A stretch of DNA of 44,744 nt, taken from IMG/VR virus record IMGVR_UViG_3300025324_000016, positions 1-44,744 of that record; one strand, given 5' to 3'. The translations under genes were made by a program, and so were the position numbers. How positions within the stretch are numbered: position 1 is the first letter of the stretch; every line of letters starts with the position of its first letter. The stretch comes from a virus. The notes under the pieces were generated by a model. The model did no database searches. It had not been told where the DNA came from and saw nothing but the letters and a program-made list of their open reading frames with translations. Positions 1 through 35,985 of this stretch are shown here, one piece after another.

Positions 1-13
1 CTGAGGCCATAAA

Positions 14-223
14 ATGACCATGCGCCAAGCCCTACAATCCGGCAATAATTTTCAAGCCATCAAAATAGTTAAACGTATTCCCTCTGGCTGTTCGATTGCC
101 GAAGCCGAGCACGAGGGCTTAATCACAAGCTCAGAAGCCGGACAACTCGCCAGAGCAATTAAAAACTTGCCGCGGCGCTACCGACAGTCAATAAGACTAA
201 ATAAATATGAGGTTTGCTTATGA
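14..223 (+). CDS. small hypothetical protein
   Basis: A 69-residue protein of unknown family with many basic residues towards the C-terminus. The start is ATG at base 14 with a TGAGG ribosome site at 2-6. Its stop overlaps the next start (ATGA at 220-223), which suggests translational coupling. If the genome is circular, it is the first gene behind the promoter at 44694-44723, so it would head the rightward early operon. No domain is recognised and no function is proposed. Confidence 0.6.
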   Translation: MTMRQALQSGNNFQAIKIVKRIPSGCSIAEAEHEGLITSSEAGQLARAIKNLPRRYRQSIRLNKYEVCL

Positions 224-330
224 ATAGAACCTTGCCCTTACTCGCCAGTTTAACGCTGCTGGCGTGGTTCGCTATCGGGGCAATCATAAAATCACTATCA
301 ATAATCATAATAGCGTTGTTAGGAGTTTAG
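220..330 (+). CDS. 36-residue membrane micro-protein
   Basis: ATG overlaps the stop of the preceding gene as ATGA. The product is 36 residues and almost entirely hydrophobic: a Leu/Ala stretch near residues 5-22 and an Ile-rich stretch near residues 26-36, separated by a single Lys. It would sit in the membrane as one long helix or a hairpin. The next gene follows by one base and uses the GGAG in its tail as ribosome site. No family is recognised. The overlaps and composition support a real gene. Confidence 0.5.
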   Translation: MNRTLPLLASLTLLAWFAIGAIIKSLSIIIIALLGV

Positions 331-331
331 A

Positions 332-769
332 ATGGCAATGGTTGGAGTCAATAACGAAAAAGTAAATAGGTTACTAGAACAAGCTAAACAAGATGGCATA
401 GGCAGCGACCTAACCGATAATATGCTAAACGATATAGAACGTACCCAAAAAGTTTGGAATGTAGCCGAGCCAAACGCCACCAAGTTTCTACAGCGCTTTA
501 TGGCTGAAATTGATGAAGTCGAAAATTCCGCTGGGTTTGGCGAGGTAATGTTTAAGATGGTCGGGGAACTTAAAACCTTTGGTCTATCAATGGCGCTACT
601 AAATGAAATAGTAAAGTTTACTGAGCAACTGGACACAATTTTACGTAAGCGCAAGTCATTTTTGGGTAAAGCCAAAAATGGCGACCAAGCGAAAGCCGAA
701 ATGATACGCCAAGTCTATATCGCGGCTATCCTTGCAGAGCTAATCCAGCAGCTTAAGGCCGAACTTTGA
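332..769 (+). CDS. hypothetical helical protein upstream of MoxR ATPase
   Basis: A 145-residue protein, mostly helical by composition, with no recognised domain. An AGGAG ribosome site at 321-325 precedes the ATG. Its TGA stop (767-769) overlaps the TTG start of the MoxR-type ATPase, so the two should be made together. MoxR/vWA pairs are often encoded with a third accessory or substrate protein, and this one occupies that position. That role is inferred from context only. Confidence 0.7.
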   Translation: MAMVGVNNEKVNRLLEQAKQDGIGSDLTDNMLNDIERTQKVWNVAEPNATKFLQRFMAEIDEVENSAGFGEVMFKMVGELKTFGLSMALLNEIVKFTEQLDTILRKRKSFLGKAKNGDQAKAEMIRQVYIAAILAELIQQLKAEL

Positions 770-2028
770 GAGCGATACGCAACCTTAAAGCCGGCGAAAG
801 GGTCGTTGTAACTGACGACCCTGTTATCACCCTTAGATGGCCAACCTGGACACCTCACCATGAAGCCCTTAAAGGTTCAACCCTCACAGTGGAGTCCGTA
901 GAACGTAACTATGTAATGCTTAATACTCCGCGTGGCTCGATGGGATTTTCAAAGCGCTGGCTATCTAGGCCGGTTGTTGATAAATCAAAAAAATCAACTG
1001 GCAGGATACCAACAAAGGTTAAAAAGAGCAACTTACCTAAAATCGGTATTCATACCATCTTAGGCCAGCCAAAAGCTAAAAAACATCTTGGGGTGGCTAT
1101 CAAGCACAATCTACCAGTTTTGCTTGTCGGCGATACCGGCACCGGTAAAACCACTATAATCAAGGATATTGCTGACGGCCGCAAGCAAACTGTTCTTCGT
1201 TTTAGTATTACTGGTGAAACCACAGTGGACGAGTTTGTCGGTAAATACGTCTTAGAGGCCGGAGAAACCAAGTGGCAAGATGGCATATTACTTTACGCCA
1301 TGAAAGCCGGACACTGGTTGGTGGTTGATGAGGTAAATGTCGCCTTACCGGAAATCCTGTTTGTTCTACATAGCTTGCTTGATGATGATAAACAGGTACT
1401 TGTTACTCAACACGATGGCGAAATCATCAAGCCACACGCCGAATTTAGGTTCTTTGGTACAATGAACCCTGTTGACGAGTACGCCGGAACTAAAGACTTG
1501 AACAAGGCGTTCAAGTCCCGTTTTGGTATGATTTTGGAGTTGAAATACCCACCGGCTAAAATCGAGCGCCAGATTGTCGAGTTGAAAGGCGAGACCACGC
1601 CAGAGATGGCGGCTTTACTGGTTGATATCGGCCTGGCTATTCGCAAAGCCAAAGCCAATGACGAGGTATTTTTCACTTGCTCAACTCGCGACCTAATACA
1701 GACCGCCAAACTGGTTGAGCCACTAGGCATAGATGACGCGTTGACTGTCGGCATTGTCAACAAAGGTAACGGCGATGAGAAAAAGCTTAGAGAGATAATC
1801 GCCAAACTGGTTAGCGGTTATGAGGAAGCTATCGCGGAGAATATCACCCTCAATATCGAAATGGCTATCACGCTTAACAAAGCCAAAGAACAGCTAATCG
1901 CTCAACAAAAAGATATTGAGAAAAAAATCAGAGCCGAGATTTTGGCTGAACTCAAAGCCAAGAAAAAAGGAACTACAAAAAAGACAACTAAGAAACGCCT
2001 CAGTTTGGCTGAAAAGTTAAAACTTTGA
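766..2028 (+). CDS. MoxR/CobS-like AAA+ ATPase
   Basis: A 420-residue ATPase of the MoxR/CobS type. Such ATPases work with vWA-domain partners to remodel or metallate substrate proteins. Residues 1-70 form a separate small domain of SH3-like composition. The AAA+ core has Walker A GDTGTGKT at 122-129, Walker B LVVDEVN at 185-191, a sensor-1-like FGTMNP at 230-235 and an SRF arginine-finger candidate at 251-253. The C-terminal ~70 residues are a Lys/Glu-rich helix ending in a basic tail. It starts with TTG overlapping the previous stop, and a second TTG overlaps its own stop to start a 20-residue ORF. The vWA gene follows directly. CobS/CobT-like pairs are known in some phages, but their role is unclear. 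Confidence 0.9.
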   Translation: MRAIRNLKAGERVVVTDDPVITLRWPTWTPHHEALKGSTLTVESVERNYVMLNTPRGSMGFSKRWLSRPVVDKSKKSTGRIPTKVKKSNLPKIGIHTILGQPKAKKHLGVAIKHNLPVLLVGDTGTGKTTIIKDIADGRKQTVLRFSITGETTVDEFVGKYVLEAGETKWQDGILLYAMKAGHWLVVDEVNVALPEILFVLHSLLDDDKQVLVTQHDGEIIKPHAEFRFFGTMNPVDEYAGTKDLNKAFKSRFGMILELKYPPAKIERQIVELKGETTPEMAALLVDIGLAIRKAKANDEVFFTCSTRDLIQTAKLVEPLGIDDALTVGIVNKGNGDEKKLREIIAKLVSGYEEAIAENITLNIEMAITLNKAKEQLIAQQKDIEKKIRAEILAELKAKKKGTTKKTTKKRLSLAEKLKL

Positions 2029-2087
2029 GTAAAAAAGTCTTAGTAAATCCTAAAGACGGCGGTTATGTAGTTGTGGAAGATGTATGA
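2025..2087 (+). CDS. 20-residue coupled micro-ORF
   Basis: TTG at 2025 overlaps the stop of the ATPase gene (TTGA). The frame runs 20 codons and its TGA overlaps the ATG of the vWA gene (ATGA at 2084-2087). It therefore exactly bridges the gap between the two genes. It could be a true peptide or a translational relay that sets the ATPase:vWA ratio. The size and overlaps are seen; the role is inferred. Confidence 0.4.
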   Translation: MSKKVLVNPKDGGYVVVEDV

Positions 2088-3295
2088 GCAGCTTTTTAAT
2101 CGGCGTTAGAGTCGGCAAGCAACCGTTTTTAGTTAGGTTCGAGAATGGCGAAATAGTCGGTGTTATTCCGATAACCGAACCCCCCACCGAAACTCAAGCT
2201 GGCGGTGATAGTGATAGCGAAGTACAAAGCGAAATAGTACAAAGCGAAGTACAAAACGAAATACCGGACTGGATTGACAAAGCCATCAGTCCGAGCGATG
2301 GCGAAGATGATGGCAAAGATGGCGGTGGTTGGGGAGCAGGAGTGAACACTGGCGATATTAAAGTCAATAAGCGTTTTTTTGAAACCGACCCTACCAAGCT
2401 CGACCCTGTTTTCAAACAGCAGCTCATGTCTGTAATGACCGACAACAAATACGATAGGCACTTAAAGGGACGTAAAAAAGGCAATATTGACCATAAAAGC
2501 TTGTGGCGAGTATCCACCGGCGCGACCAATGTTTTCACTCAAAAGCAATCTCGTAAAAATAAGCGTTATAACATCGTATTACTGATTGATGAGTCGGGCA
2601 GTATGCATGCAGCAGTTAGCAGCCGATTGGCGACCTACTACCAACTCCGCGAGCACATGCCTAGTGACAAAGCCTCAGATAAGGCCGAACTTCTCCGAAG
2701 CCACCAAGCAGCCAGAACAGCCGTTTTTTTAGCCAAGCACCTAGACAATATCAATATCGAACTGGCGATTGTCGGATTTAACCGCTTTATTATGATACAT
2801 AAAAATTTTGATGAACACCTACCAGACTTAGAGGAGCTTTATGGGATTATTGTCAATAATGTTAGAGGCGGTGGTGGCGCTGAAAATAACGATATAGACG
2901 GATTGGCGATGGCTTATAAATTGCTCAGACCGAGGCTCGGCCAACAGAACATAGTAATTATGATTAGTGATGGCCAGCCAGCACCGAGCCGCTTTATAGA
3001 GGATATACGACAAGGGCGTTATCGCCATGAGGAGTTACCAGTCCTGACTGACAGCAGCGGTAAAAAACATACTTTTTGGTATGACGAGTCTATAAAACTC
3101 ACTTCTGTTCAGAGGGGACAAGACCACCATATCAGAGCCTACGTCCACTCTAACCGCCATATCGCTAAAACTTTTGGGATAGGTATTGACTCTAACGCGC
3201 GACAAGTGCCGGACAGCATAAGAATAAATGATGGCAGCCAATTACAAGCAGTGGTTGTTGATTATCTTAAAAAGAATATCAAGAGAGGCGTGTAA
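2084..3295 (+). CDS. vWA (CobT-like) MIDAS protein
   Basis: A 403-residue protein. Residues 1-30 form a short N-terminal segment. Residues 35-90 are acidic and Gln/Ser/Gly-rich, probably a flexible linker. A von Willebrand factor A domain fills the rest. The MIDAS metal site is visible as DESGSM at 169-174, with a later SDGQP at 295-299 and a CobT-like acidic segment near 267-272. The immediate MoxR-type ATPase upstream is the usual partner: the ATPase remodels the substrate and the vWA protein presents it or coordinates metal. Translation is coupled through the micro-ORF at 2025-2087. No cobalamin genes are present, so cobaltochelatase activity is unlikely. Confidence 0.88.
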   Translation: MSSFLIGVRVGKQPFLVRFENGEIVGVIPITEPPTETQAGGDSDSEVQSEIVQSEVQNEIPDWIDKAISPSDGEDDGKDGGGWGAGVNTGDIKVNKRFFETDPTKLDPVFKQQLMSVMTDNKYDRHLKGRKKGNIDHKSLWRVSTGATNVFTQKQSRKNKRYNIVLLIDESGSMHAAVSSRLATYYQLREHMPSDKASDKAELLRSHQAARTAVFLAKHLDNINIELAIVGFNRFIMIHKNFDEHLPDLEELYGIIVNNVRGGGGAENNDIDGLAMAYKLLRPRLGQQNIVIMISDGQPAPSRFIEDIRQGRYRHEELPVLTDSSGKKHTFWYDESIKLTSVQRGQDHHIRAYVHSNRHIAKTFGIGIDSNARQVPDSIRINDGSQLQAVVVDYLKKNIKRGV

Positions 3296-3314
3296 TACTT
3301 AGAAAGGAGCGCAA

Positions 3315-3497
3315 ATGACGAAGTTTTTTATTGTTGCAGCCGTTTTGATATGGTTCGCAGCAGGAATAGCGACAGCAGGAATAGCGATAGGAGCAACCAT
3401 ATCGCTATCAGAGAAGCCAGTTGTTGCTAGCTGCCCTGGCAGTAGCACCGGCTTGCAACATACCGAGTATCAGTTACAACCGGCTATCAGTCTTTAA
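3315..3497 (+). CDS. small membrane protein
   Basis: A 60-residue protein with a clear AAAGGAG ribosome site. Residues 4-30 are hydrophobic and rich in Ala, Gly and Ile, consistent with one membrane segment or an uncleaved signal anchor. The remainder is polar with one Cys near residue 40. It follows the vWA gene by 19 bases and ends the first operon. No family is recognised. Confidence 0.6.
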   Translation: MTKFFIVAAVLIWFAAGIATAGIAIGATISLSEKPVVASCPGSSTGLQHTEYQLQPAISL

Positions 3498-3498
3498 T

Positions 3499-3716
3499 CA
3501 GGTGGGGGGTTAATAGTTTAACCCTCTACCTGAGCGTACAAGTTTTGTTGTCGGCTCGGCTTGTACGCTCGAACCTTGTCTACAAGCCGACAATCCACTT
3601 TTTTACACCTTAGAGGGAACGCCACGCTATCTGATAGCCTCTAGCGTTACCCTCTTGTGGTGGTTTGGTTAATTGCCAGCACTCCCCAGCATACCATAAA
3701 GCCGACTGCTGGCAAT
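3499..3716 (+). ncRNA. structured intergenic region with serial hairpins and pseudoknot
   Basis: No credible gene is seen here. Successive strong dyads are. CAGGT...GGTTAA pairs with TTAACC...ACCTG (3499-3532). GAGCGTACAAG (3532-3542) pairs with CTTGTACGCTC (3560-3570). TTGTCGGCT (3548-3556), inside that loop, pairs with AGCCGACAA (3585-3593), giving a pseudoknot. CGGCTTGTA (3557-3565) can instead pair with TACAAGCCG (3581-3589). AGAGGG-AACGC (3612-3622) pairs with GCGTT-A-CCCTCT (3644-3655). ATTGCCAGCA (3672-3681) pairs with TGCTGGCAAT (3707-3716). It may be an operon 3' structure, a small RNA, an attenuator or a replication origin. Confidence 0.5.
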
Positions 3717-3738
3717 CAATCAGACCATCGTTTTACCA

Positions 3739-3768
3739 TTGACTTAACGGGGGTGGGCATGTTATAAT
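3739..3768 (+). promoter_or_regulatory. rightward sigma70-like promoter with operator-like motif
   Basis: TTGACT (3739-3744), an 18-base spacer and a perfect TATAAT (3763-3768). The -35 box lies inside TACCATTGAC (3734-3743), a motif repeated in other promoter regions of this genome. It would drive the leader RNA that follows. Confidence 0.75.
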
Positions 3769-3772
3769 TATA

Positions 3773-3856
3773 GTGTAGAGTGGTAACCGCAAGGGCGGAG
3801 AAAATGGTAATCTGCAGTCAAACCCCTCCTAGTTTTTCTTTATTATCACTCTACAC
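3773..3856 (+). promoter_or_regulatory. long-range hairpin in leader RNA
   Basis: GTGTAGAGTG (3773-3782), just after the promoter, is a perfect inverted repeat of CACTCTACAC (3847-3856). A CCCTCCT inside the loop (near 3826-3832) is complementary to the AGGAGGG ribosome site at 3863-3869, so the leader could switch between two pairings. This looks like a regulated 5' leader or a small RNA. Confidence 0.45.
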
Positions 3857-3876
3857 CTTGAGAGGAGGGTAGCATT

Positions 3877-3906
3877 ATGCCGGATATAACAAAAAAAAGT
3901 GTCTAG
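3877..3906 (+). CDS. possible 9-residue leader peptide
   Basis: An ATG with a near-perfect AGGAGGG ribosome site eight bases upstream opens a nine-codon frame ending in TAG. The strength of the site for so short a frame, just after the hairpin at 3773-3856, suggests a translated leader peptide. It could also be chance. Confidence 0.3.
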   Translation: MPDITKKSV

Positions 3907-3926
3907 CTAACAATCATATAATCTAG

Positions 3927-3960
3927 AAGCCGATAAAGGAGTAACTATGTCGGCTTTTTT
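3927..3960 (+). terminator. hairpin plus T-run, overlapping a ribosome site
   Basis: AAGCCGA (3927-3933) pairs with TCGGCTT (3950-3956) and is followed by Ts, as in an intrinsic terminator. The loop holds AAAGGAG and the ATG at 3947, so folding would both end transcription and hide that start. Confidence 0.5.
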
Positions 3961-4084
3961 ATATTCCGAAATCTTAAACAAAAACCGAACGCCACCAACC
4001 AGATTTGGGGCGACCCCAGACCCCGCGAAAAATCAAGCCCACCAGACATCGGAAAGCCACAGACCCCAGACCCCGGCCAATTAA
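3947..4084 (+). CDS. possible 45-residue Pro-rich protein
   Basis: ATG with AAAGGAG five bases upstream, 45 codons, TAA stop. The second half is Pro/Gln/Thr-rich and derives from a direct repeat of GACCCCAGACCCCG in the DNA (around 4015-4030 and 4060-4075). The start lies in the loop of the terminator-like hairpin at 3927-3956. It may be a real regulated small gene, or noncoding DNA with an accidental frame. Confidence 0.3.
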   Translation: MSAFLYSEILNKNRTPPTRFGATPDPAKNQAHQTSESHRPQTPAN

Positions 4085-4102
4085 AGTTTTCTGTAGAAGG
4101 TA

Positions 4103-4131
4103 TTGACAAGCTTACCTTTAAGGTGTATCAT
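4103..4131 (+). promoter_or_regulatory. strong rightward promoter
   Basis: TTGACA (4103-4108), a spacer of exactly 17 bases, and TATCAT (4126-4131). The spacer contains ACCTTTAAGGT, a near palindrome similar to ACCATTAAGGT in the promoter at the right end. The preceding bases GGTATTGACAAG are shared with the promoter at 11397. It drives the nuclease operon. Confidence 0.8.
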
Positions 4132-4170
4132 GGAGATAGAAGCAAAGAAAGGAAGCCAATAACAAAGCCA

Positions 4171-4335
4171 ATGTCACACCCAGACCCAACTCGAACTTAC
4201 GCCGAAGACATTTTATCGCAATGGTCAGAAGATGAACTGGAAAGATTGTGGGAAATGTATGCCGAGCAATGCAAGCAAGCTCACGTTAAAGCTGATATGA
4301 GCCAATTCTTAGTATTCCTAGAGGAACGGCTCTAA
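4171..4335 (+). CDS. small acidic hypothetical protein
   Basis: A 54-residue acidic, helical protein. The frame is open further upstream to a GTG at 4123, but the promoter -10 box sits at 4126-4131, so transcription begins near 4138 and ATG 4171 is the first usable start. A GAAAGGAAG site lies somewhat far upstream (4147-4155). Its stop overlaps the next ATG (TAATG). No family is recognised. Confidence 0.6.
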   Translation: MSHPDPTRTYAEDILSQWSEDELERLWEMYAEQCKQAHVKADMSQFLVFLEERL

Positions 4336-5138
4336 TGGCGTTTAAGCGCGAATGGGGCCGTTTTATACCCGACGGAGCGATAAATGAATCAATTGCCAGC
4401 TGGCAAGCCAAACAGCCTGAGAGACAACAGGAGAATGCCTCGCCATCATCTTTATTAGACTGCCCGCGTGTTGTATGGCTGCGAAAGCATAAAGTCCCGC
4501 CGACTAATGTCATCGGCTGGGGCAAAAAGCAACGCTTTATGTTAGGCAGAATTACCGAGGACCTTATCGCCTCACAATTGCGAGATGAGGGGATACTTTT
4601 ATACCACTGGCCAGATAATTTCGAAGGCCAAAGCCAATCGCTATCAATGGGCGAGGGGATAGATAAACTGACCGGGACCCCAGACCTACTGCTGAAGTTA
4701 GGAGACAAGGTGGCTATCTCTGACAGTAAAACTTCAAGAAGTGACAGCTTTAACTACGTCCCAATTAAAGACGAAGAAATTTGGCAAGACCCTTACTGGT
4801 ACAGGCACAAACTACAACTGACGGCCTATTATATGCTGTGCCATGCTAATAAAAGTTGGTTACTACAACAGGGTTTGGAAGCACCGGATATTTGTCATCT
4901 ATTCAGTTATGCCCTAGACGATGGGATAGTCCGCCGAGAATTAACTTGGACGCCGACTAGAAGGGACATAATTGAAGTCGGGCTATTAGTTCGACGCTGG
5001 AACCAGGCTTACATCTCGAAAGAGATGCCAGCCTGTACTTGCGTCGAGGATGGAACTGTCAAGTTCTGCCCGTATTCGATAAAAACAGAGAAATCAAAAG
5101 TTGGCACAGAATGCTGCCACGACTCGTTAAAAAATTAA
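4335..5138 (+). CDS. Cas4/RecB-like PD-(D/E)XK nuclease
   Basis: A 267-residue nuclease of the PD-(D/E)XK superfamily, closest in layout to Cas4/RecB-type exonucleases. Candidate catalytic residues: E75 in GRITEDL, D117 in GTPDLLL, D130 and K132 in the SDSK motif, and Q161/Y165 in QLTAYY. Cys43 in an SLLDCPR context and the Cys group C234, C236, C245 (plus C260/C261) match the one-plus-three cysteine pattern that holds a 4Fe-4S cluster in Cas4 and AddB. There is no Cas1, Cas2 or CRISPR array here, so a phage recombination or end-processing role is more likely. It begins the post-promoter operon with an HTH protein and a possible annealing partner downstream. Confidence 0.85.
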   Translation: MAFKREWGRFIPDGAINESIASWQAKQPERQQENASPSSLLDCPRVVWLRKHKVPPTNVIGWGKKQRFMLGRITEDLIASQLRDEGILLYHWPDNFEGQSQSLSMGEGIDKLTGTPDLLLKLGDKVAISDSKTSRSDSFNYVPIKDEEIWQDPYWYRHKLQLTAYYMLCHANKSWLLQQGLEAPDICHLFSYALDDGIVRRELTWTPTRRDIIEVGLLVRRWNQAYISKEMPACTCVEDGTVKFCPYSIKTEKSKVGTECCHDSLKN

Positions 5139-10183: not shown

Positions 10184-10546
10184 ATGAAGCTTGACAAGGC
10201 CGACCAGCTTTTCAGCCTATATATACGAACACGCGATAATTGGACCTGCCAACGTTGTGGTAGGGAATTTACGCCTCCCACCCGAGCCCTACACTGTAGC
10301 CATTTTCAGGGCAGAGGCAAAGAAAACACCCGCTTCGACCCGCTCAACGCCTGCGCGCTCTGTTATGGTTGTCACCGTTATCTCACCTCCCATCCTGCCG
10401 AGCACTATGAATTTCAAATTAAACGGCTCGGGCAAGAAACAGTCGATAAAATAATCCTGGCTTCCCATCTTTATAAAAAGAAAGACCGGAAACTGGAAGT
10501 CCTTTATTGGCGGAGACGCTTGACAGAAGAGTTCGGGGTAAAGTAA
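10184..10546 (+). CDS. HNH endonuclease-like (NinG-like) protein
   Basis: A 120-residue protein with a zinc-supported HNH layout: Cys22-x2-Cys25, an HCSH motif (H37-H40), FDPLNAC with Asn55, then Cys60-x2-Cys63-His64. This spacing is like that of lambda NinG/Rap-type and other small phage HNH proteins, which process recombination or packaging DNA. It is the last gene of the long rightward operon. A homing-endonuclease role is less likely, since it is not inside another gene. Confidence 0.8.
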   Translation: MKLDKADQLFSLYIRTRDNWTCQRCGREFTPPTRALHCSHFQGRGKENTRFDPLNACALCYGCHRYLTSHPAEHYEFQIKRLGQETVDKIILASHLYKKKDRKLEVLYWRRRLTEEFGVK

Positions 10547-10557
10547 ACTAATGGTAT

Positions 10558-10593
10558 CTATTTGGACTTCGTGAAAGAGACAAATAGTGTTTT
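10558..10593 (+). terminator. rightward terminator-like hairpin
   Basis: CTATTTG (10558-10564) pairs with CAAATAG (10581-10587), followed by TGTTTT. It lies 12 bases after the HNH gene stop and would end the rightward operon. TGGACTTCGTG in its loop recurs at 10625-10635. Confidence 0.5.
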
Positions 10594-10600
10594 ACAAAAG

Positions 10601-10623
10601 AAAAAGGCGCTAGATGTAGCGCC
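10601..10623 (-). terminator. leftward intrinsic terminator
   Basis: GGCGCT and AGCGCC (10606-10623) form a six-pair stem with a six-base loop. On the minus strand it is followed by TTTTTCTTTT, a good T-run. It would stop leftward transcription coming through the RNA locus. Confidence 0.6.
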
Positions 10624-10705
10624 CTGGACTTCGTGTTACTCTTATAGTAACAAATTGAAATCTTTTGTCAAGCCGTAACTTTACAAATTGATAGAAGGCA
10701 GTAGT

Positions 10706-10933
10706 GAGGGGTGGCGGAACAGGTAGACGCAGGACGTGTCGTGAGAATGAACTACGAGGAGCGTTCGTAGACACAGGTTGTGCGATAACCAGAGACCACA
10801 CCCACGCAATATTTGCGAGCGGGACACGACAACGGTACACGGTTAGTGGTCGCTCTTATGCCGTGCGAAGCTGACGCAACAGCCAGATGCCGTATTCACT
10901 CATTCATGCGAGGTGCAAATCCTCGCCCCCTCT
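10706..10933 (+). ncRNA. split tRNA-Leu-like element around a ~177-nt structured insert
   Basis: The 5' part reads like a tRNA-Leu start: GAGGGG, TG, then a D-arm with GCG (10714-10716) and CGC (10728-10730) around a GG-containing loop ending GGTAGA. The 3' part is a T-arm, GCGAGG-TGCAAAT-CCTCGC (10908-10926), followed by CCCCTC (10927-10932), which pairs with GAGGGG. Acceptor plus T-stem total 12 pairs, as in tRNA, but divided 6+6 and not 7+5. Between them lie hairpins: CTACGA/TCGTAG, GGTT/AACC with a 7-base loop, GACCAC/GTGGTC, CGCAA/TTGCG, CACGG/CCGTG, GCTG/CAGC. No CCA is encoded. It may be an intron-bearing tRNA, a tmRNA-like hybrid or part of a large RNA. No canonical group I core was seen. 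Confidence 0.5.
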
Positions 10934-10973
10934 CTCATGCTTTCTATCTCTAATCAACTACTCAAACGCTTAA

Positions 10974-11307
10974 GGCTGGGTGTCACAAAAACTATCGGTA
11001 GTACGGGCAACCGTGCGCTGTGCGGAATCAACCGAGCCCAGCCCTCTAAGTAACTCCCTTAGTGGAGTGCCGTGCTCTGCCTAAGTACCCCAACAGAGTG
11101 AGTAGTAGAGAGGGGCTTAGGTTGTATCAGATTTGAGTAATCAAGTGACGTTACAGGGGCTAAGCTCCTCGCTCCTGCTCATAGGCAACACGGCTTTTGG
11201 TAAGGGTTCTAGGTGAGTAAGGAAACGCGACTGGAAGCGGTAAGCGCAGGTGAAAAAACAAGCTCTCGGAATCCTGTAACGCCCCCAATCCCTAGACCCT
11301 TTACCAA
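10974..11307 (+). ncRNA. large pseudoknotted RNA candidate
   Basis: There is no plausible gene, but long complementary arms. GGCTGGG (10974-10980) pairs with CCCAGCC (11037-11043), enclosing ACTA-TCGG-TAGT and ACGG-GCAA-CCGT hairpins. ACTCC/GGAGT lies at 11053-11068. CCTAAG-ta-CCCC (11080-11091) pairs with GGGGCTTAGG (11112-11121). CGTTACAGG (11149-11157) pairs with CCTGTAACG (11273-11281). The 17-base arm at 11197-11213 pairs with 11291-11307 with one bulge on each side. The last two helices interlock, forming a pseudoknot. The density of helices resembles large phage RNAs such as GOLLD or ROOL, which also lie near tRNAs; class membership is untested. Confidence 0.55.
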
Positions 11308-11396
11308 GCTTCATTAAAAGTCCCTGATGTTGATGTAAAGCAATAATGAAACAGCTAAAGCCTCATAGCTCCGACCAAAAGGCTAAGGGGGAGGTA

Positions 11397-11425
11397 TTGA
11401 CAAGTTTTTACGTCTTTGATAAACT
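11397..11425 (+). promoter_or_regulatory. strong rightward promoter for ncRNA
   Basis: TTGACA (11397-11402), a 17-base spacer and TAAACT (11420-11425). The upstream context GAGGTATTGACAAG nearly matches the promoter at 4103. No gene follows for about 360 bases, but an intrinsic terminator does. Confidence 0.75.
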
Positions 11426-11431
11426 GTTATT

Positions 11432-11749
11432 AAGCACATTAACGTTAAGGGTCATTGGTCGTTTAATAACGGGGTTGCAGCCGTAGGACTACTAGGAGGC
11501 GGTGAAAGCCGTGCAAAGCCGGGAGAAGACAGAAGCTTCAGGCCGAGCGCCGATAAAAGCCAGGCAGAGAGCTTGCTCAATGCTACTAGTAAATGCCCGC
11601 CCCATAACAATCAACCTCAGTAAGGTGACTAAACATGGACTACTGCAAGCGGGATTCATGCCGGTGGAACAGCTGAAGAGCTGATTCCGGCCCAATGACT
11701 TGTTAATTTGCCCAAGCTTAGAAGAAACCTCAGTTCGCTGGGGTTTTTT
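11432..11749 (+). ncRNA. ~320-nt independently transcribed RNA
   Basis: Promoter at 11397-11425 and a strong terminator at 11726-11749 bracket about 318 bases with no convincing protein frame. Helices visible include CCCGC (11596-11600) with GCGGG (11649-11653), and a long hairpin at 11660-11691 with GCC, GGAA and CAGCT arms around a GAAG tetraloop. CGG-TGAAAG-CCG lies at 11500-11511. GTTATTAA (11426-11433) with TTAATAAC (11463-11470) flanks the 5' end. I do not recognise 6S, RNase P or tmRNA signatures. Confidence 0.6.
11726..11749 (+). terminator. intrinsic terminator with UUCG tetraloop
   Basis: AACCTCAG pairs with CTGGGGTT across a TTCG tetraloop and runs into TTTTTT. This is a very strong rho-independent terminator on the plus strand. 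Confidence 0.9.
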
Positions 11750-11753
11750 CATA

Positions 11754-11783
11754 TTGACAATTATCAGGCGTTAATGGTAGAAT
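11754..11783 (+). promoter_or_regulatory. rightward promoter with embedded operator motif
   Basis: TTGACA (11754-11759), an 18-base spacer and TAGAAT (11778-11783). GTTAATGGTA (11770-11779), the exact reverse of TACCATTAAC at 44731-44740, overlaps the -10 box. A GTG start lies six bases after the -10 box. Confidence 0.75.
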
Positions 11784-11789
11784 AGAGTT

Positions 11790-11924
11790 GTGATTCCTGA
11801 AGGTAAATTCCTAAAAAAAGGTTGGGCTAGCCGCGATGAGCAGCGAGAACGTCGTAAGGCTTATCGACAGCGCATCAAAGCTAAATTACGTAGGTTAGCC
11901 AGATTAAGGCTTGACTACAATTAG
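11790..11924 (+). CDS. 44-residue basic protein, leaderless start
   Basis: GTG at 11790 is exactly where transcription should begin (seven bases after TAGAAT), and no ribosome site precedes it, so the mRNA is predicted leaderless. The product is 44 residues and very basic: an Arg/Lys-rich helix (RDEQRERRKAYRQRIKAKLRRLARLRL in pieces) with few other residue types. It could bind nucleic acid or membrane. It lies just after the RNA locus and before the CHAP gene. No family is recognised. Confidence 0.55.
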   Translation: MIPEGKFLKKGWASRDEQRERRKAYRQRIKAKLRRLARLRLDYN

Positions 11925-11973
11925 TAGGGGCTTGGTAAAATGGTCGGGTTGCTTTAAATAAGGATAACAATAA

Positions 11974-12002
11974 GCTAGATTGCAGAAGCGGCAGGCTCTA
12001 GC
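11974..12002 (+). promoter_or_regulatory. hairpin upstream of CHAP gene
   Basis: GCTAGA (11974-11979) pairs with TCTAGC (11997-12002). It sits where the open frame of the CHAP protein begins, so it may control or hide the true start. No gene is seen in 11925-12001. Confidence 0.35.
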
Positions 12003-12088: not shown

Positions 12089-12877
12089 TTGCCGAACTTC
12101 CAAGGGATATCAAGGACTGCCCACAAATTTAGTGCTTTGAGCCGCAAGGTTGGGAAGGGCTTGCGTCCGCCGTCCACCAAGTTATATAATAAGATTTGTT
12201 CCGGGCTAGCCACCGGCAAGCGTTTAGCGAGCCGAACGGGTAAGCTAAGACCTAAGCGTTTGAATGCGGACAGTTGGCGACTGCTTCCCCGGACCAGAGC
12301 CACCAAAGAGACTTTTAGAAGACTCGTGCGGTGGCTCTCTATTTTTTATAAAAGACTAACCAAGCCCCATCTTCCACTCTTCTACTTGATTTTAACAATT
12401 ATCGGCTTGTTGGTGTGGTTCAGCGTCCAGGTCGGCGCTGAAAGTATCAGGTTAGACAACCCCACCCCCTATAAAGCCCCTGTAAGCCCTCTGAAGCCCC
12501 TAGAATCAACGAAGCTGGTGGAGCAGTCTATCTTAGCTGCAATCATCAAACAGCCCAAATGGGGGTCTTGTGGTACGTCAGGCTACTTAGGAGGGCAGTG
12601 CGTCTACGGGATTGCCAAGTGGATTTGCGTACCTCAGAATATGGGTAACGCTAACGAGTGGGACGAGTACGCCAGAAGGAATGGGATTACAGTATCAAGC
12701 GTACCCAAGATTGGTTCGGTAGCCCAATCTGACGCTGGTCGGTACGGCCATGTAACTCTGGTGCTAAAAGTTGAAGGCGGTAGTGTTTACACACGGGGTA
12801 TGAACGAGGCCGGGCCGTGGAGTATTAGGGAGAGCTGGTCACCTGTATCGAGTTTTGAGTATATCTATTTCAATTAG
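12089..12877 (+). CDS. membrane-anchored CHAP-domain peptidoglycan hydrolase
   Basis: A 262-residue protein from TTG 12089. Residues 1-95 are Lys/Arg-rich. A hydrophobic membrane segment spans ~96-115. A linker follows, and a CHAP domain fills ~145-262. The likely catalytic Cys is C171 in GGQCVYG and the His is H221 in GRYGHV. CHAP domains cut peptidoglycan peptides or amide bonds. With a basic N-terminus inside and the enzyme outside, it is not a plain cytosolic endolysin; it may be a membrane-tethered lysin or secreted effector. The frame stays open upstream to 12002 with sensible protein (an ISKKPGTIWYYEDLPKK segment), so an ATT (12008) or CTG (12047) start is possible. No convincing ribosome site is seen. 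Confidence 0.8.
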   Translation: MPNFQGISRTAHKFSALSRKVGKGLRPPSTKLYNKICSGLATGKRLASRTGKLRPKRLNADSWRLLPRTRATKETFRRLVRWLSIFYKRLTKPHLPLFYLILTIIGLLVWFSVQVGAESIRLDNPTPYKAPVSPLKPLESTKLVEQSILAAIIKQPKWGSCGTSGYLGGQCVYGIAKWICVPQNMGNANEWDEYARRNGITVSSVPKIGSVAQSDAGRYGHVTLVLKVEGGSVYTRGMNEAGPWSIRESWSPVSSFEYIYFN

Positions 12878-25026: not shown

Positions 25027-27471
25027 TTATATGGTAGCAGAATTCTTGGGACTATCAATAGTAGTTGAAGTAGTCGGGTTAATAACAGTTGTTACAATCA
25101 CACCATTACGCAAGGTCAGAGTAGTAATTGGTTGGATAATAGTTTTAGGTGAGGCATCGGTATCTATCTCGACTCCGATAGCTGGTTGGTCGATAGTGGT
25201 AGCGTAGGGTGGTGGTGATGGTGACGGACTAGCGGAGGCACTAGCTGAAGCACTCGGCGAAATACTCGGGGAGGCAGAAGCCGAAGGCGAAATAGATGGA
25301 CTGGCGGAGGCCGAGGGACTGGCTGAAGCCGACACACTAGCACTGGGAGATAATGAGGGGCTCGGGCTGACGGAAGCTGAAACACTGGCAGAGGGTGAAA
25401 TAGAAGCGCTGGGAGATAGAGAAGCTGAGGCGGAGGCGCTAGGCGATAAACTGGCTGACGGAGAAATAGATGCCGAAGCACTAGCTGAAGGCGACAGAGA
25501 AGCACTTGGGCTTATAGAGGCGCTAATGCTAGCGCTGGGCGATAGTGATGCTGAAGGTGATAACGATAGAGACGCCGAAGCACTAGGGCTTAAGGACGCA
25601 GAAGGTGAGATACTGGCTGAGACAGACGCCGATGGGGAAACTGAGGCGCTGGGCGATATAGATGGGCTGACACTAGCGCTAGGAGATAGTGAAGCTGACG
25701 GCGATAGGGTGGGCGACGCTGACGCTGAGGGCGATAGACTGGCTGAGGGTGATAGTGAGGCTGATGGAGATATCGAAGCTGAAACCGAAGCTGAAGGAGA
25801 TACAGAGGCAGACGGGCTGATAGAGGGGCTTACAGAGGCAGATGGGGATAAACTAGCAGAGGGTGAAATACTCGCAGAAATACTAGCTGATGGGCTACGG
25901 GAGGCTGAGGGGGAAATGCTGGCACTTGGGCTGATACTCGCCGACGGTGATATGGAAGCCGAAATACTCGCCGAAGGGCTAACACTCGCAGAGGGCGAAA
26001 TGGAAGCACTCACACTGGCGGAGGGCGATACTGAAGCGCTCGGACTCACGCTACCAGAGGGTGACACCGATGCACTGGCGGAAGCAGATGGGGATACGCT
26101 GGCGCTCGGTGAGATTGAAGGGCTAGCAGATGCCGAAGGCGACACGCTTGCTGAGGGTGAAATACTAGCGGAAGGTGATACGCTCGCTGATACAGAAGCA
26201 CTCGGGCTTACGCTTGCGGACGCGGAAGCGCTGGGGGACACACTTGCAGAGGGAGAGATTGAAGCACTAGGTGAAACCGAGGCACTGGGTGAAAGCGAAG
26301 CGGAGGGCGAGACCGAAGAACCACCTCCTGCCGGTTTATGGTCTACTAGGAGCCAGAGAGTTGACATGAGTACCCCGGAAGAACTATCGGCAGACTTACG
26401 CCAGCCAATCTGGGTAGTATCTAAATCAGCTTTAGTCCAAGCCGTAGTGGAAGCTCCTGGCAGGTCATACAAGGTTAGAAGGTGGTTTTTAGGGGCAGCA
26501 TTTGCATTGGTCGCGAAAGCACTGCCAACCGTAGGGGTGAACCCCGAGGATTCTTCAACCGTTCCCCCTGAGGATGCTTTTATACGGAGAACTATTGTGT
26601 CGGACGTCCCTGCTCCGCTTTCGGCGAACCTAAATCCTAGTTGAACGCAGTTTATGGTGTCGTCAGAAGCCAGAGCAGCCGGAGTATCAGCAACGCCATA
26701 GTCGTCGGTATCGCCAACGTCGTCGGTTAGAGAGGAGACAGTAGTAATCCCGTCATCGGGCGTGACTTCATCAACGGATTGATAGTTGGTAGTTGCTCCT
26801 AAACCGCCTAAAGCATTGTTGTCCCCCGTAGCATTCGGACGCAAATGGATGATTTCGCCTTCGCCTGGCAAGTCGTTTTGGAAACTGCCAGTTGAATCGT
26901 TGACAGCCACATCATCGAAGTACAAGTCGCAGGTGGTAGCAGTAATAGCACCCAGTAATATTCGGTTAGGATTATTATTACCGAGATTGACAAGGGTCCC
27001 CGTAGCGAATGAAGTGCCATCTATATAGCCCGTCACAGTTGGTGTGGTAGCGTGGTATTCGTATTTAAGTTCTATCCGGTACCAGGTATCAACCGATAAG
27101 GCCGAACTATCACTACCAATTTGGGTGACATTGCCGCTGTCCCATAGCTCAAGGGTGCGGTCAGAGTTTAGTCTAAAACCGGCAACATTGACGGCGGCAG
27201 CCGTGTCTCTGATTCTGAAAATATCATCAAGAGCATTGGTGGAAGAGGCAATTCTAAGGTAAAAACGGAGAAACAGATTGTCAGTACCGCCGCCAGAAGC
27301 CAGGAAATCATACGCTAAGTTAGCAGTAGCACCAGCCGGATTTACCCTCATGGCGTAAGTGCCGCTACGCACGGTAGTTGTCTGGATGGTGGGAGAATTG
27401 GTTAACACCGTCCACTCCATCCCGGCGGTGACGGAGTTTAACTCAAATCCTGAAGACCAAAGTCTAGCCAT
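25027..27471 (-). CDS. virion adhesin-like protein: LamG-like domain plus long SPSA stalk
   Basis: An 814-residue protein. Residues ~1-200 form a concanavalin/LamG-like beta-sandwich ([25 protein letters not shown] strands), a usual sugar-binding fold. Residues ~205-380 form a second beta-rich domain. Residues ~385-755 are an S-x-S-P-S-A tract. The last ~58 residues are Thr/Ile-rich and could be an anchoring or trimerising end. The layout is head, stalk, base. It lies directly downstream of the glycosyltransferase cluster, making the Ser-rich stalk a possible substrate. Confidence 0.75.
25209..26319 (-). repeat. SPSA hexapeptide repeat tract 3 (longest)
   Basis: About 370 residues of S-x-S-P-S-A units. 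25690-25761 is shared almost exactly with 17504-17575, suggesting recent exchange between repeat genes. The antisense strand is stop-free over much of this length as a by-product of codon use. Confidence 0.9.
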
Positions 27472-27505
27472 TTTGTTTTACCTTTTTATTTAAGGACTAG
27501 CTACA

Positions 27506-29176
27506 TTATAGCTTGAGATGCTCCCAACTTGGTATTTTATCGACTGTGCTCTGAGTGAAGTTGACGGCAGCGGCCTTATCCCGAAAATCCTTCAAGCTCC
27601 ATTTGCTATCAGATAGGTTCTGACCATGACCGCGAATATCAATGTTAGGAGACTCTGAGCGCCAAGAATCCATTAGGATGTCGTCAACATAGATGTCTTT
27701 AGGAATCGCTGAATTATCACGTGTAGCCACCGATTCCTCGGTATTATGTGCCCCAGGTTCAAATCCCATGGAATTGTTATAGCCGTACTCTTCAACAATG
27801 GCGACCCTTTTACGATAGTGGCCTATGAGCAACTCGCGGTTAGCGCACAGCTGTGAAACCTTATAGGCATCCCAGTGGGTCGCTAGCCCATCCTTAGTGC
27901 GGACACACCACCAGTTGAAGTTGTAATAAAATCTGTCGTCTCTTGGTGGGGTAAAGTCAAAATGACTGGGGTGGTAGAGCACGTCATGCTCTGTGAAAAA
28001 GACATATTTAGCACGACTAGCTTGGAGTGCGGTCAGGATTTGTTTAAACATCATTAAGTAACTGGGCTCGCCCTTTAAACGGATGTTGTGCCCCATATGC
28101 GCCATCGGTTTTAGCGTGGCTGATACTATTGGTAGACCCCTATCTTTAGCGATACTTTTAATCTGCTTTTGGACTGGACGGGCGATACTCAATCGCAGGC
28201 GATTATCAGTGTAGTAAATAATACCTCTTTCAGTAGCGGGTGGTGGCATAACATGGTCGAACTGTTTGAGCTTGGTTAAATCTTCGTCCTTCCAGCCGTA
28301 GACTGGCCAGAACTTTTCCACCAGCCAGGATAACGGGTATACCTGTTTGTCCCACTTGTTCTCGAAGAATATCTGCCTAGCGCGTTTTTTAGCAAAGTTC
28401 ACGCTCGATTGCTTCTGTTCATAGGGGAAGCTGAAATCTCCCCCCTGGGTACGAAACATATGAGCATACCAGGTCTTACGGTTGCACAGCACCCTACCGC
28501 CCGACAGCCAAGTCTTAACAGCTACTTCTATACCTTGCGAGCCCCATGAACCAAACTGTTCGTCGCAGATGCCTAGCTCCCAATACTTGTCTCTGGTTAT
28601 CATAAAAAAAGACCCCTGTAAGCTCATGGTTTCAACCAGGTCTCCCTGCTGCCGTTTTTTATATTCATTGAAATATTGGAAGTGCGGTTCAGGGTCGAAG
28701 CAGTAGGCGGTGGAATTAGGCGATGGCTTGGCAAACCATAACACGTCCCTTTCGGTGGGCTTCCCGCAATCCTTGCACGGTCCTGAAGGCGACTGGTAGC
28801 GCCGGTGCCCGTCCGGGCAGACCCAATCAAAGGCATGGAGATTTTTCATTACCGGCACAACCGTCCAATCATCCTGCATGTTCTCCATTAGTATGCGGTC
28901 AAAACCCTTGTCAAAGCTACAGTGAGCATCACATTTGGCGATGTATTTAGCGGTTGATAATCGGGCTAATTGATTAGTCATTGCTCGCTGACCGATTGAT
29001 TGAGGATAACGGACGATTCTAACTCGCTTATCATCAACTATTCCGGGGTCGCTCCATTCTCCGTCTAGCCCGATTAAGATTTCAGTATCGCCCTCAATAT
29101 TCTCTAGGAGGTTCTCGACTGTCTTGGCCGTGAACATTTCCCTACGGCTTGGAATAAGGATACTGAGTTGTGGCAT
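27506..29176 (-). CDS. two-domain glycosyltransferase
   Basis: A 556-residue protein. Residues ~1-295 form a GT2/GT-A-type domain: ILIPSRRE start, DGEWSDPG near 38-45, and DAH (83-85) at the DxD position. It carries a zinc-finger-like insert with C120, H124, C134 and C137. Residues ~315-556 form a second GT-A-like domain with EHD (396-398). Each half has a stand-alone paralogue in the same cluster: the N-terminal half resembles the product of 32924-33877, the C-terminal half that of 29142-29855. It would transfer two sugars or build a disaccharide. Donor and acceptor are unknown; virion repeats are a candidate acceptor. Confidence 0.8.
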   Translation of the reverse strand: MPQLSILIPSRREMFTAKTVENLLENIEGDTEILIGLDGEWSDPGIVDDKRVRIVRYPQSIGQRAMTNQLARLSTAKYIAKCDAHCSFDKGFDRILMENMQDDWTVVPVMKNLHAFDWVCPDGHRRYQSPSGPCKDCGKPTERDVLWFAKPSPNSTAYCFDPEPHFQYFNEYKKRQQGDLVETMSLQGSFFMITRDKYWELGICDEQFGSWGSQGIEVAVKTWLSGGRVLCNRKTWYAHMFRTQGGDFSFPYEQKQSSVNFAKKRARQIFFENKWDKQVYPLSWLVEKFWPVYGWKDEDLTKLKQFDHVMPPPATERGIIYYTDNRLRLSIARPVQKQIKSIAKDRGLPIVSATLKPMAHMGHNIRLKGEPSYLMMFKQILTALQASRAKYVFFTEHDVLYHPSHFDFTPPRDDRFYYNFNWWCVRTKDGLATHWDAYKVSQLCANRELLIGHYRKRVAIVEEYGYNNSMGFEPGAHNTEESVATRDNSAIPKDIYVDDILMDSWRSESPNIDIRGHGQNLSDSKWSLKDFRDKAAAVNFTQSTVDKIPSWEHLKL

Positions 29177-29855
29177 TTTTATTTTCCTTATATAGTTTTA
29201 CTATATCAGATGCCCGCCCCCAAAAAGGTATCTCGGTGGCACGAATATTACCCAATGCCTTGCGGGTGCCCAACCCCTCGAACTGCAAGGCGGTCTGGTG
29301 CGAGAATATTATATTGGGTGGGTTAATGTAAAAATATTCGGAAGGGTAAGGAGTCGTACCGAGCTGGTTATCATACTTTCCGGGTTCACCGAATATTTCT
29401 TTGCGGATTTTAGAATCATCCGACCATAACCGGAACCTTTCTTCTAAGTGATTTATAAACATCTGGCGGTCACAGATAAGGCCAGCCAAGTTCCTTCGGC
29501 CTCCGGGAGCTTTATAGCTGAATACCGGCTCTCCCCAGGTAAAGATACTCCAGGCGTTCATGTTATAACCCCAGTGTCCGTCTTTAGGGCGAAATTTGAA
29601 GTGCTCTGGGGAATAAAGAACATCGTCCTCACAACAAGCTATATATTTAGTGTGAGCCAGTTTCGCCCCCTGCAATGCTTGGCGATAGATATTGGCCTGG
29701 GAACGTTCTGCTAAAGGGTCTTTCTTGATAATAATTATAGGGATATCGCCAAGTGCCTTCAGCAACTGATTCATTGTAGCCACTGCGAACTTGTGGGGTA
29801 ACTCGTCAGCCGTGTAATAAACAGCGGTTATATCATTGCTATGTATTTTTGCCAT
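29142..29855 (-). CDS. glycosyltransferase-like protein (GT-A, EDD motif)
   Basis: A 237-residue protein with alternating strands and helices and EDD (76-78) within ACCEDDVLY, the usual metal/nucleotide-sugar position of GT-A enzymes. It is similar to the second half of the two-domain enzyme downstream (YYTADEL versus YYTDN; DVLY...HF...P in both). It overlaps the previous gene by 28 bases and the next by 35, so the cluster is tightly co-translated. Confidence 0.7.
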   Translation of the reverse strand: MAKIHSNDITAVYYTADELPHKFAVATMNQLLKALGDIPIIIIKKDPLAERSQANIYRQALQGAKLAHTKYIACCEDDVLYSPEHFKFRPKDGHWGYNMNAWSIFTWGEPVFSYKAPGGRRNLAGLICDRQMFINHLEERFRLWSDDSKIRKEIFGEPGKYDNQLGTTPYPSEYFYINPPNIIFSHQTALQFEGLGTRKALGNIRATEIPFWGRASDIVKLYKENKNATTQYPYSKP

Positions 29856-30712
29856 AAGGCGTATTTCTCCCTATAAATCTTAAAGTAGGGATGGCTCTCA
29901 TCGCCCTCCCAGAAATGTTCATTTAGCTCCATGCCAGGAGCTTCGTTCTTGAGATTGGTGAAAACATTGGAGGCTCGTTCGTGGTGGACTCTAGCATATC
30001 CAGTGACCGCTGCCCAGCCGTGTTTATCTATCTCGCGTTTACTCTCCACGCCCGTTAGGATGTCATCAAAACGATGGATACCCAACGCCCAGGGAGCGTG
30101 GTACATATAAGGCAGCATCTTCCGCTTGAAAGCCAAATTCATAGAGCACATCGGGTAATAGGCACCTTTAGGAATCGGACCTTTATAAAACTCTACCGGT
30201 CTGTGGCTCCCCAGAATAAGCTGAGAAGCAGCGTCCCAGTCAGCCACGCCTCGCCAGACACCATGCGATAGGACGACCTCAGCTTCTTCTCTTATTAGAT
30301 AGGGGAACCCCCTGGTGTAGTTGTCGACTGCGGTGGATATCCAGCTTACAGGAACCATTTTTCTGAGGGCGGTAATATGGTCAGCAATGGGGTCGCCTAT
30401 CGGTAGAACGTCGTCGTCTAGGGTGACGATATACTCGACTTCTGGTAGGTACCTAGCTATATAGGCAAAGCCAAGGTTCCGGATTCCAGCGTTGAGATTA
30501 GACAAACAGTCAGCGTATTCACCCATGACATCCACGGGGGAATAGGGCAAGGTATTTTCGTCAGTCCCTATAACTGTTGGGTATTTGCCATCTAGCACTT
30601 TGATAAATTCGGCTTTATGCTTATCGAACAGCGGTTGCCACGCCTCCATGAACTTGGCGAAAATGTCAGCTCGCTCAGGAATAGTGGGTACGGCTACGGC
30701 AATTCTGCTCAT
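29828..30712 (-). CDS. RGP/UDP-arabinopyranose mutase-like (GT75) protein
   Basis: A 294-residue protein carrying the landmark pattern of the plant reversibly glycosylated polypeptide/UDP-arabinopyranose mutase family: TLDDDVLP with DDD at 99-101, RGFPYLIR (134-141), SHGVWRGVADWDA (149-161), PMCSMNLAFKR (187-197), RFDDILTG (214-221) and a HERASNVFTNLKNEAPG block near 244-260. In plants it interconverts UDP-arabinopyranose and UDP-arabinofuranose through a glycosylated Arg. The candidate Arg lies in the RGFPYLIR block. It may supply or transfer a pentose for virion glycosylation. It starts in an ATGA overlap with the preceding gene. Confidence 0.8.
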   Translation of the reverse strand: MSRIAVAVPTIPERADIFAKFMEAWQPLFDKHKAEFIKVLDGKYPTVIGTDENTLPYSPVDVMGEYADCLSNLNAGIRNLGFAYIARYLPEVEYIVTLDDDVLPIGDPIADHITALRKMVPVSWISTAVDNYTRGFPYLIREEAEVVLSHGVWRGVADWDAASQLILGSHRPVEFYKGPIPKGAYYPMCSMNLAFKRKMLPYMYHAPWALGIHRFDDILTGVESKREIDKHGWAAVTGYARVHHERASNVFTNLKNEAPGMELNEHFWEGDESHPYFKIYREKYALWQKYIAMI

Positions 30713-31377
30713 CGGTGGTGGCTTACCAAACTCATGTACCCTGTTTTATAAAGCGGTTCATCGAATGTCTTAACCTTAAGTCCCCAATTATCGCATAGCC
30801 AAGGCAAGGGAATCTGGTCGCAAGTAAAATATCGGCTCTGGTAGTACCACCAGTCCTTCATAAAAGCCTGGACTCTCGGATTATTGCGGTAAGCGAATAC
30901 TGTGGTAGCGTATAATTTATCGTCCGAATAATGCTTGTCTTTCTGGATTATTCGTAACTGCTCTTTATGAAGACCGTTCTCGTATCTTGAGATGATGTAG
31001 TCCTGCCCTCTCTTGGTCCCTACCCGCCGGTGAAGATAGTCGTCTACGTGCCGAACCTCGGCTTCGATGGAATTACGGTGCGGATGTTCGAAAAAGCCGA
31101 TATCATAACCATCTATTTGTGATAAATACCACGTCGCACAATCTCGTCTTAACAGAGATATACCTCCATCCAACCAAATATAAAAATCATATCCAGGCAA
31201 CATCTGCCAACCGAAGTATTTAGGGATTCTGTACTGTAACCTTGGGGTCAAACCAGCGATTAACGGAAAATTCTCATCAGTCCAGCGATGAAAAGTAGCG
31301 GGGATGTCCTGCTCGACGGGGTCTTTGGGGGTGTCGAAGCCACCCAAGACGCAACTTAAGATGGCTACCTTTTCCAT
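30709..31377 (-). CDS. DUF616/TOD1-like glycosyltransferase-type protein
   Basis: A 222-residue protein from ATG 31377, inside the end of the preceding gene; a TTG at 31386 would add three residues. It shows YDFYIWLDGGISLL near 64-77 and HPHRNSIEAEVRHV further on, the pattern of DUF616/MUCI70-type proteins that share a GT-A-like fold. It is therefore probably a sugar transferase. It is part of the overlapping glycosylation cluster. Confidence 0.65.
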   Translation of the reverse strand: MEKVAILSCVLGGFDTPKDPVEQDIPATFHRWTDENFPLIAGLTPRLQYRIPKYFGWQMLPGYDFYIWLDGGISLLRRDCATWYLSQIDGYDIGFFEHPHRNSIEAEVRHVDDYLHRRVGTKRGQDYIISRYENGLHKEQLRIIQKDKHYSDDKLYATTVFAYRNNPRVQAFMKDWWYYQSRYFTCDQIPLPWLCDNWGLKVKTFDEPLYKTGYMSLVSHHR

Positions 31378-34131: not shown

Positions 34132-34186
34132 ATTAAATTAATTTTAACACAAAAAGGTTCCAGAATTACAACAAAGTTTCAGCCGG

Positions 34187-35608: not shown

Positions 35609-35618
35609 GCTGTACTAC

Positions 35619-35918: not shown

Positions 35919-35950
35919 ATTTATTTTTACCCTTAACATTTATCATAATA

Positions 35951-35985
35951 CAACTAAGTCCCTGAATAATAAAGGAACTTAGTTG
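35951..35985. repeat. inverted repeat upstream of small virion gene
   Basis: CAACTAAGT (35951-35959) pairs with ACTTAGTTG (35977-35985). The right arm region includes 20 bases (35963-35982) repeated exactly at 9688-9707. Confidence 0.7.

Follow-up and report, generated by a model that had tools for sequence, protein, structure and literature searches.

Positions 10705-10933 of the phage genome examined here almost certainly encode an RNA of a family that is widespread in phages and absent from Rfam, an assignment made by sequence comparison. The ends of this element resemble tRNA-Leu, a structured insert replaces the anticodon and variable arms, and the element is not a translating tRNA.

A tRNA-like element in a non-coding phage stretch

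The window, by which we mean the whole 44,744-nt stretch of DNA that was analysed, is a 44.7-kb phage record with genes for a terminase large subunit and a major head protein among those encoded. Between a NinG-type HNH gene and a CHAP lysin gene, about 1.1 kb is devoid of any convincing reading frame. All ORFs of at least 35 aa within 10600-11780 scored zero or negative against the codon usage of the same phage, which agrees with the initial annotation, where the stretch was described as lacking a convincing protein frame; such scores are weak evidence alone, because values close to zero are also seen for some genuine genes nearby. A search of the whole window with Rfam 15 at the gathering score gave zero matches, and a search of 10500-11950 with E-values up to 10 returned noise only. 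The GOLLD, ROOL, tmRNA, RNase P and group I/II intron models, with which the initial annotation had proposed to compare the region, all remained without a match in 10500-11950 at E up to 10, the same being true of 6S RNA, and none of these models matched the window at the gathering score. ARAGORN called neither a tRNA nor a tmRNA in the window; a run with relaxed settings called hundreds of chance genes and was set aside. The features of the element and its surroundings are as follows.

10184-10546: NinG-type HNH gene, flanking the non-coding stretch
10520-10549, plus strand: promoter-like site TTGACA-18-TAAACT upstream of the element, a consensus match only
10705-10933, plus strand: whole anticodon-less tRNA-like RNA, 229 nt
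10705-10711, plus strand: 5' acceptor strand TGAGGGG, pairing with 10927-10933 (6 of 7 pairs)
10712, plus strand: U8 of the tRNA-like element
10713-10730, plus strand: tRNA-Leu-type D-arm GGCGGAACAGGTAGACGC, the second commonest form in the family
10731-10907, plus strand: structured insert, 177 nt
10737-10743 / 10825-10831, plus strand: helix H1, TGTCGTG / CACGACA, 7 pairs, crossing H2
10745-10750 / 10900-10905, plus strand: helix H2, GAATGA / TCATTC, 6 pairs, the base helix of the insert
10908-10926, plus strand: T-arm with 6-bp stem GCGAGG/CCTCGC, preceded by CAT, a family signature
10914-10920, plus strand: T-loop UGCAAAU, within the T-arm
10927-10933, plus strand: 3' acceptor strand CCCCTCT, CCA not encoded
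12089-12877: CHAP lysin gene, the other flank of the non-coding stretch

Promoter-like matches in the region number 4, compared with 1.4 expected. Just upstream of the element, beside hairpins, there is a direct repeat, TGGACTTCGTG, at 10563-10573 and 10625-10635, enclosed by a 17-nt inverted repeat pair (10518-10534/10657-10673).

Membership of the window element was assessed with covariance models. Model R2, built from 12 relatives with the window left out, matched 10705-10933 over its full length with 52.4 bits and an E-value of 3.6e-13 (E-values are rough, calibration having been short), and this was its sole match. The same model gives ordinary tRNA-Leu genes 28-42 bits and most other large members 46-87 bits. 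With model R1, built from short members, the two halves of the element were matched separately, at 29.1 and 26.5 bits; R1 alone is insufficient, because it also gives tRNA-Leu 33-40 bits. The tRNA-like element reported in the initial annotation is thereby confirmed, with its start at 10705 instead of 10706. No second tRNA-like fold was found in 10940-12000. By fold energy the element is unremarkable (z about -0.8). Both family signatures occur in it: a Leu-type D-arm GGYGGAANAGGTARACRC directly after the acceptor, at 10713-10730, and CAT/TAT followed by a 6-bp T-stem, a UGCAAAU loop and the acceptor complement, at 10905-10933. The latter fold occurs a single time in 10500-12000, and any such fold was seen in only one of 20 shuffles.

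With tRNA-Leu the element shares the acceptor length, a D-arm GGCGGAA..GGTAGACGC with a 3-bp D-stem, and a T-arm stacked on the acceptor. It differs in having no anticodon arm, a T-stem of 6 bp, a T-loop UGCAAAU with G55, a variable discriminator and a structured insert. In the window, 2 of 5 anticodon-stem pairs can form, and the discriminator is C at 10934, or T with a 6-bp acceptor, so that the A73 of tRNA-Leu is missing in either reading. With tmRNA (RF00023) it shares tRNA-like ends around a pseudoknotted insert at the place of the anticodon arm, and the two RNAs lie side by side in two phages; unlike tmRNA, it has a true D-arm with a stem, an unrelated insert and no recognised tag reading frame. 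The element is thus nearest to tmRNA in architecture and to tRNA-Leu in sequence, and it belongs to neither.

The family, its covariation and its inserts

A first pattern, consisting only of the D-arm and the odd T-arm (GGTGCAAATCC) spaced 160-190 nt apart, was found in 43 phage contigs, which with few exceptions share one layout. ARAGORN called no element of this set a tRNA; its sole tRNA-Leu (in L101) was an ordinary tRNA that matched the pattern by chance. Scanning with the T-arm pattern gave at least 120 stretches in viral contigs and at least 118 in GTDB genomes, and the pooled pattern scans comprise at least 157 distinct relatives with D-arm, T-arm and acceptor. A scan with the D-arm only, which is unbiased toward the T-loop, also matched true tRNA-Leu genes, and UGCAAAU was again present in most of its matches; the overall tally for this loop (144 of 165) counts loci from the earlier scans and is biased. 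Rare variants of the loop are UGCGAAU, UGUAAAU, CGCAAAU, UGCAGAU and UUCAAAU. The D-arm is of the tRNA-Leu type and nearly invariant throughout the family.

The core of the family is strongly supported by covariation. Among the matches listed, with 121 acceptor combinations, 94% of acceptor cells pair, compared with 53% when partners are dealt at random. An alignment of 35 short-insert members showed pairing in 97.5% of cells (76% in shuffles); both partners had changed in 125 cells (34 in shuffles), and in the acceptor 6 of the 7 pairs had changes on both sides. An anticodon stem is not above chance in the family (5.6%, against 7.6% shuffled). Insert length ranges from 18 to 443 nt among the matches listed, two members having inserts of just 18 and 23 nt, and the inserts behave as modules: nine acceptors each occur in combination with between 3 and 8 distinct inserts, and four types of insert are shared by two or more acceptors (again among the matches listed). 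Several phages (L094, L117, L125, L163 and L168) carry multiple tRNA-like elements with different inserts, arranged in tandem at L094 7602-7810. In L204, L106 and L099 a T-arm of the ordinary tRNA type lies inside the insert, as though part of a tRNA had been taken up.

These data bear on whether the element could be a decayed or intron-bearing tRNA-Leu gene. Such an origin would account for the match of the D-arm to tRNA-Leu, and for the normal T-arms inside the three inserts just mentioned. It is, however, scarcely credible, given the strong compensatory change in acceptor and T-stem, the chance-level anticodon stem, inserts of 18 and 23 nt that are too small to hold such a stem, a G55 T-loop common to most members, and the absence of any group I or II intron match.

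Members with inserts of about 160-175 nt form a large-insert subclass, to which the window element also belongs. Its five helices, one of which is pseudoknotted, keep fixed positions and show covariation, with 28 pairs changed on both sides and a covariation score of 0.505, compared with 0.192 in shuffles and at most 0.115 when slid. In the family at large, short members included, the pseudoknot is not above chance, and we therefore claim it for the large-insert subclass only. The base helix of the insert (H2) is family-wide and ends 2 nt before the T-stem oftener than in shuffles. An interlocking pseudoknot had been noticed in the window at the outset, and the comparison upholds it: H1 lies at the position it has in large-insert relatives (shuffle frequency 0.003), H2 has a shuffle frequency of 0.0013, and the two occur jointly at the subclass positions in about 1e-5 of shuffled-insert trials, a value weakened somewhat because the allowed positions were derived from the relatives once the window had already been seen. 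By helix inspection the window insert has no clear equivalents of H3, H4 and H5, though R2 aligns across that region. A mini-hairpin after the D-arm was rejected as not above chance.

Phage hosts, neighbours and possible function

In the pattern scans, most relatives came from Firmicutes phages and prophages (among them phages of Lactobacillus, Enterococcus, Listeria and Weissella), with a few matches in other phyla, and almost all lacked an annotation. Named carriers include the Lactobacillus phages Lb338-1, phiJL-1, ATCC 8014-B2 and JNU_P10, Enterococcus phage EFDG1 and its kin, Weissella phage WC29P3 and Listeria phage LP-LmcIH1-8; Bacteroides phage BI-TP1 gave a weaker match, of 20 bits. 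At chromosomal loci, terminase, Erf or DnaB genes were near the element in 5 of 10 tested. With a strict cut-off it was present in 9 of 81 genomes of a Lactobacillus family set and in 0 of 75 of a Gammaproteobacteria set, a patchiness that indicates a distribution of the mobile-element type.

Relatives of the window phage were sought through the HNH, CHAP and terminase genes, and none of the 24 terminase relatives carried a homologous RNA. The nearest relative by HNH gene (G005) has different genes after that gene, and the one relative with an identical terminase is uninformative on the region, because it covers only window positions 1-3562 and 27209-44744. In a near-identical record, L057, 526 nt (3563-4088) lie between the two window ends, so that the window has the appearance of a genome, circular or permuted, from which that piece is missing. 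Direct blastn of the region against named phages gave only noise plus a tRNA D-arm. One candidate, from the tRNA array of a related phage (L084 17205-17275), was rejected as a family member because it has an anticodon arm; it is a Cys-type tRNA whose T-loop reads UGCAACU.

Other phage RNAs were found near some of the elements. In Enterococcus phage EFDG1 and the metagenomic phage L106 the element directly follows a tmRNA; in EFDG1 (2651-3204) and in record L446 the tmRNA directly 5' of the element is unannotated, and a ROOL RNA lies about 6 kb off. The element of Lactobacillus phage Lb338-1 begins 63 nt after a ROOL RNA, and at 3365-4800 this phage has a 1.4-kb RNA island consisting of ROOL, the tRNA-like element and a tRNA, with at least one more acceptor and T-arm fold, lacking the usual D-arm, near 4730-4790. 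ROOL, and tmRNA above cut-off, were each detected in only 3 of 50 tested records, so we consider them as neighbours in RNA islands and not as fixed partners. In other phages the element is usually free-standing, with median distances of about 190 nt to the flanking ORFs.

Abutment on tmRNA and the short distance to ROOL are as expected of a unit that is processed from a longer transcript. One could go further and regard the tRNA-like fold as a mere cleavage marker, which frees neighbouring RNAs or mRNAs from the long phage transcript; its position directly after tmRNA in EFDG1 and L106 and near ROOL and tRNAs would fit, as would the co-directionality of element and neighbouring genes (155:36 upstream, 136:46 downstream). 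Most elements, however, stand alone between protein genes, and a marker would have no need of a conserved, covarying 160-nt pseudoknotted insert, so a role limited to marking cleavage is distinctly unlikely.

A role on the side of translation was considered as well, in which the core would mimic a tRNA and be recognised by LeuRS, EF-Tu or another tRNA-binding protein, either being charged or blocking it. The nearly invariant tRNA-Leu D-arm speaks for mimicry, and the anticodon plays no part in recognition by the LeuRS of some bacteria. A73, on the other hand, is a main Leu identity base, and among the matches listed the base after the acceptor is A in 57% of members only and T in 24%; charging by LeuRS is unlikely on this account, the more so as it is not A in the window. 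The G at T-loop position 55 is unlike ordinary tRNAs, and mimicry would leave the swappable inserts unexplained. We regard it as rather unlikely.

The explanation that we favour, by a modest degree, is that a tRNA-Leu-type core and a separate insert have different tasks, the tRNA-like ends being processed and the insert acting in trans on a host factor. The insert is placed in the working role because of the pattern of change, namely swappable inserts on a fixed scaffold. As a tentative mechanism, which we put forward with less conviction, host RNase P and RNase Z would recognise the tRNA-like ends and cut a stable RNA from a longer transcript, and the CCA-adding enzyme, judging from what is known of tRNA processing, may complete the 3' end. 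The insert, which is exchanged and remodelled between phages on an unchanging scaffold, would be under diversifying pressure, and during infection it could act in trans as a decoy, or as an antagonist of host defence or regulation. In short members, where the pseudoknot is not above chance, the variable insert could also be a weakly selected spacer.

The remainder of the kilobase

The initial annotation described dense RNA structure throughout about 1 kb and at least fifteen helices. This did not hold for the stretch as a whole: the full 1000-nt fold has a z-value of -1.92 against shuffles, and 200-nt windows over the region average -0.85, a level reached by 35% of the windows of this phage. 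Since the fold z-values are mostly ordinary, helix counts alone are no evidence here except within 10960-11320, which does stand out. Downstream of the element we recognise the following features.

10960-11320, plus strand: strongly folding segment, candidate second structured RNA (z -4.57, 0 of 100 shuffles)
11397-11749, plus strand: candidate transcript of about 320 nt, from promoter-like site to UUCG-loop terminator
11397-11425, plus strand: internal promoter-like site TTGACA-17-TAAACT with TG
11725-11749, plus strand: UUCG-loop terminator
11754-11783: strong promoter-like site, for the lysin genes, next to the terminator

The internal promoter and terminator that had been pointed out earlier are thus both present. 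The fold of 10960-11320 is stronger on the plus strand (z -4.71) than on the minus strand (-2.25), and its level is reached by about 4 of 247 windows of equal length; that of 11430-11750 is unexceptional (z -1.6 to -1.7). For 10936-11780, neither 50 phage records, almost all of them carriers of the element, nor any of the loci collected gave a match, and two motif scans returned isolated 16-17-mers only. Positions around 11626-11653 had been considered as the 3' part of a tmRNA, an idea rejected since there was no tmRNA match and the pattern matches were isolated 16-17-mers. A tentative reading is that 10960-11749 probably holds an additional RNA, or two, of the phage within this RNA island.

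Alternatively, the whole could be a single RNA, giant and ornate, that is about 1 kb long and has the tRNA-like part for a 5' domain. ROOL and GOLLD, suggested earlier as the nearest known idea, are encoded by phages close to tRNA islands and have no known function, and GOLLD linkers can hold phage tRNAs (PMC12286853). The suggestion was apt in kind, as relatives of the element do lie beside tRNAs, tmRNA and ROOL in phage islands. ROOL (RF03087), structured and phage-borne near tRNA islands like the element, differs from it in its length of about 600 nt and its other fold, and does not match the window, while the same Rfam library does detect ROOL in Lb338-1; GOLLD resembles the element in its phage setting, near tRNA islands and sometimes with a tRNA in the linker (PMC12286853), and differs in that many members exceed 800 nt, in its conserved 3' region and in having no match to the window. 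A single RNA would agree with the unbroken non-coding stretch, which has a promoter-like site before it and closes with a terminator, with the unusually good fold of 10960-11320 and with the tRNAs in GOLLD linkers. Against it, relatives of the element are free-standing, no downstream sequence is conserved with it, the internal promoter-like site divides the stretch, and ROOL and GOLLD are unmatched even at E 10; we judge it very improbable. What had been foreseen for a new class, covariation with no Rfam hit, holds for the 229-nt tRNA-like element and not for a 1-kb RNA.

In our separate-insert reading, one may also ask whether the family is a new class of phage RNA, in Firmicutes and some other hosts, whose fixed tRNA scaffold serves to produce and protect a fast-changing, structured anti-defence payload, with 10960-11749 as one or two more new RNAs from that island; this broader proposal is less likely than not. 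A conserved tRNA scaffold with swappable inserts would be an expected legacy of the arms race between host and phage, and the idea is testable at once in lactobacilli or enterococci. More generally, phage RNA islands contain more than tRNAs, tmRNA, ROOL and GOLLD. We found no earlier description of the family in the open-access literature (subscription journals were largely outside the scope), and neither an Rfam 15 model nor an RNA annotation of it in the phage records inspected; the named-phage records have no annotation under the match, save the Listeria ones, in which a hypothetical protein overlaps. Even in phages that have been studied well, Lb338-1, EFDG1 and phiJL-1 among them, and in many prophages it has stayed unannotated, because tRNA finders seek an anticodon and Rfam is without a model.

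The window has a second long, hairpin-dense non-coding stretch at 3296-4122, with no Rfam match, whose folding is among the strongest of the phage (z down to about -7). It follows, at 766-3295, genes for an AAA ATPase (CobS/MoxR-like) and then a VWA protein (CobT-like).
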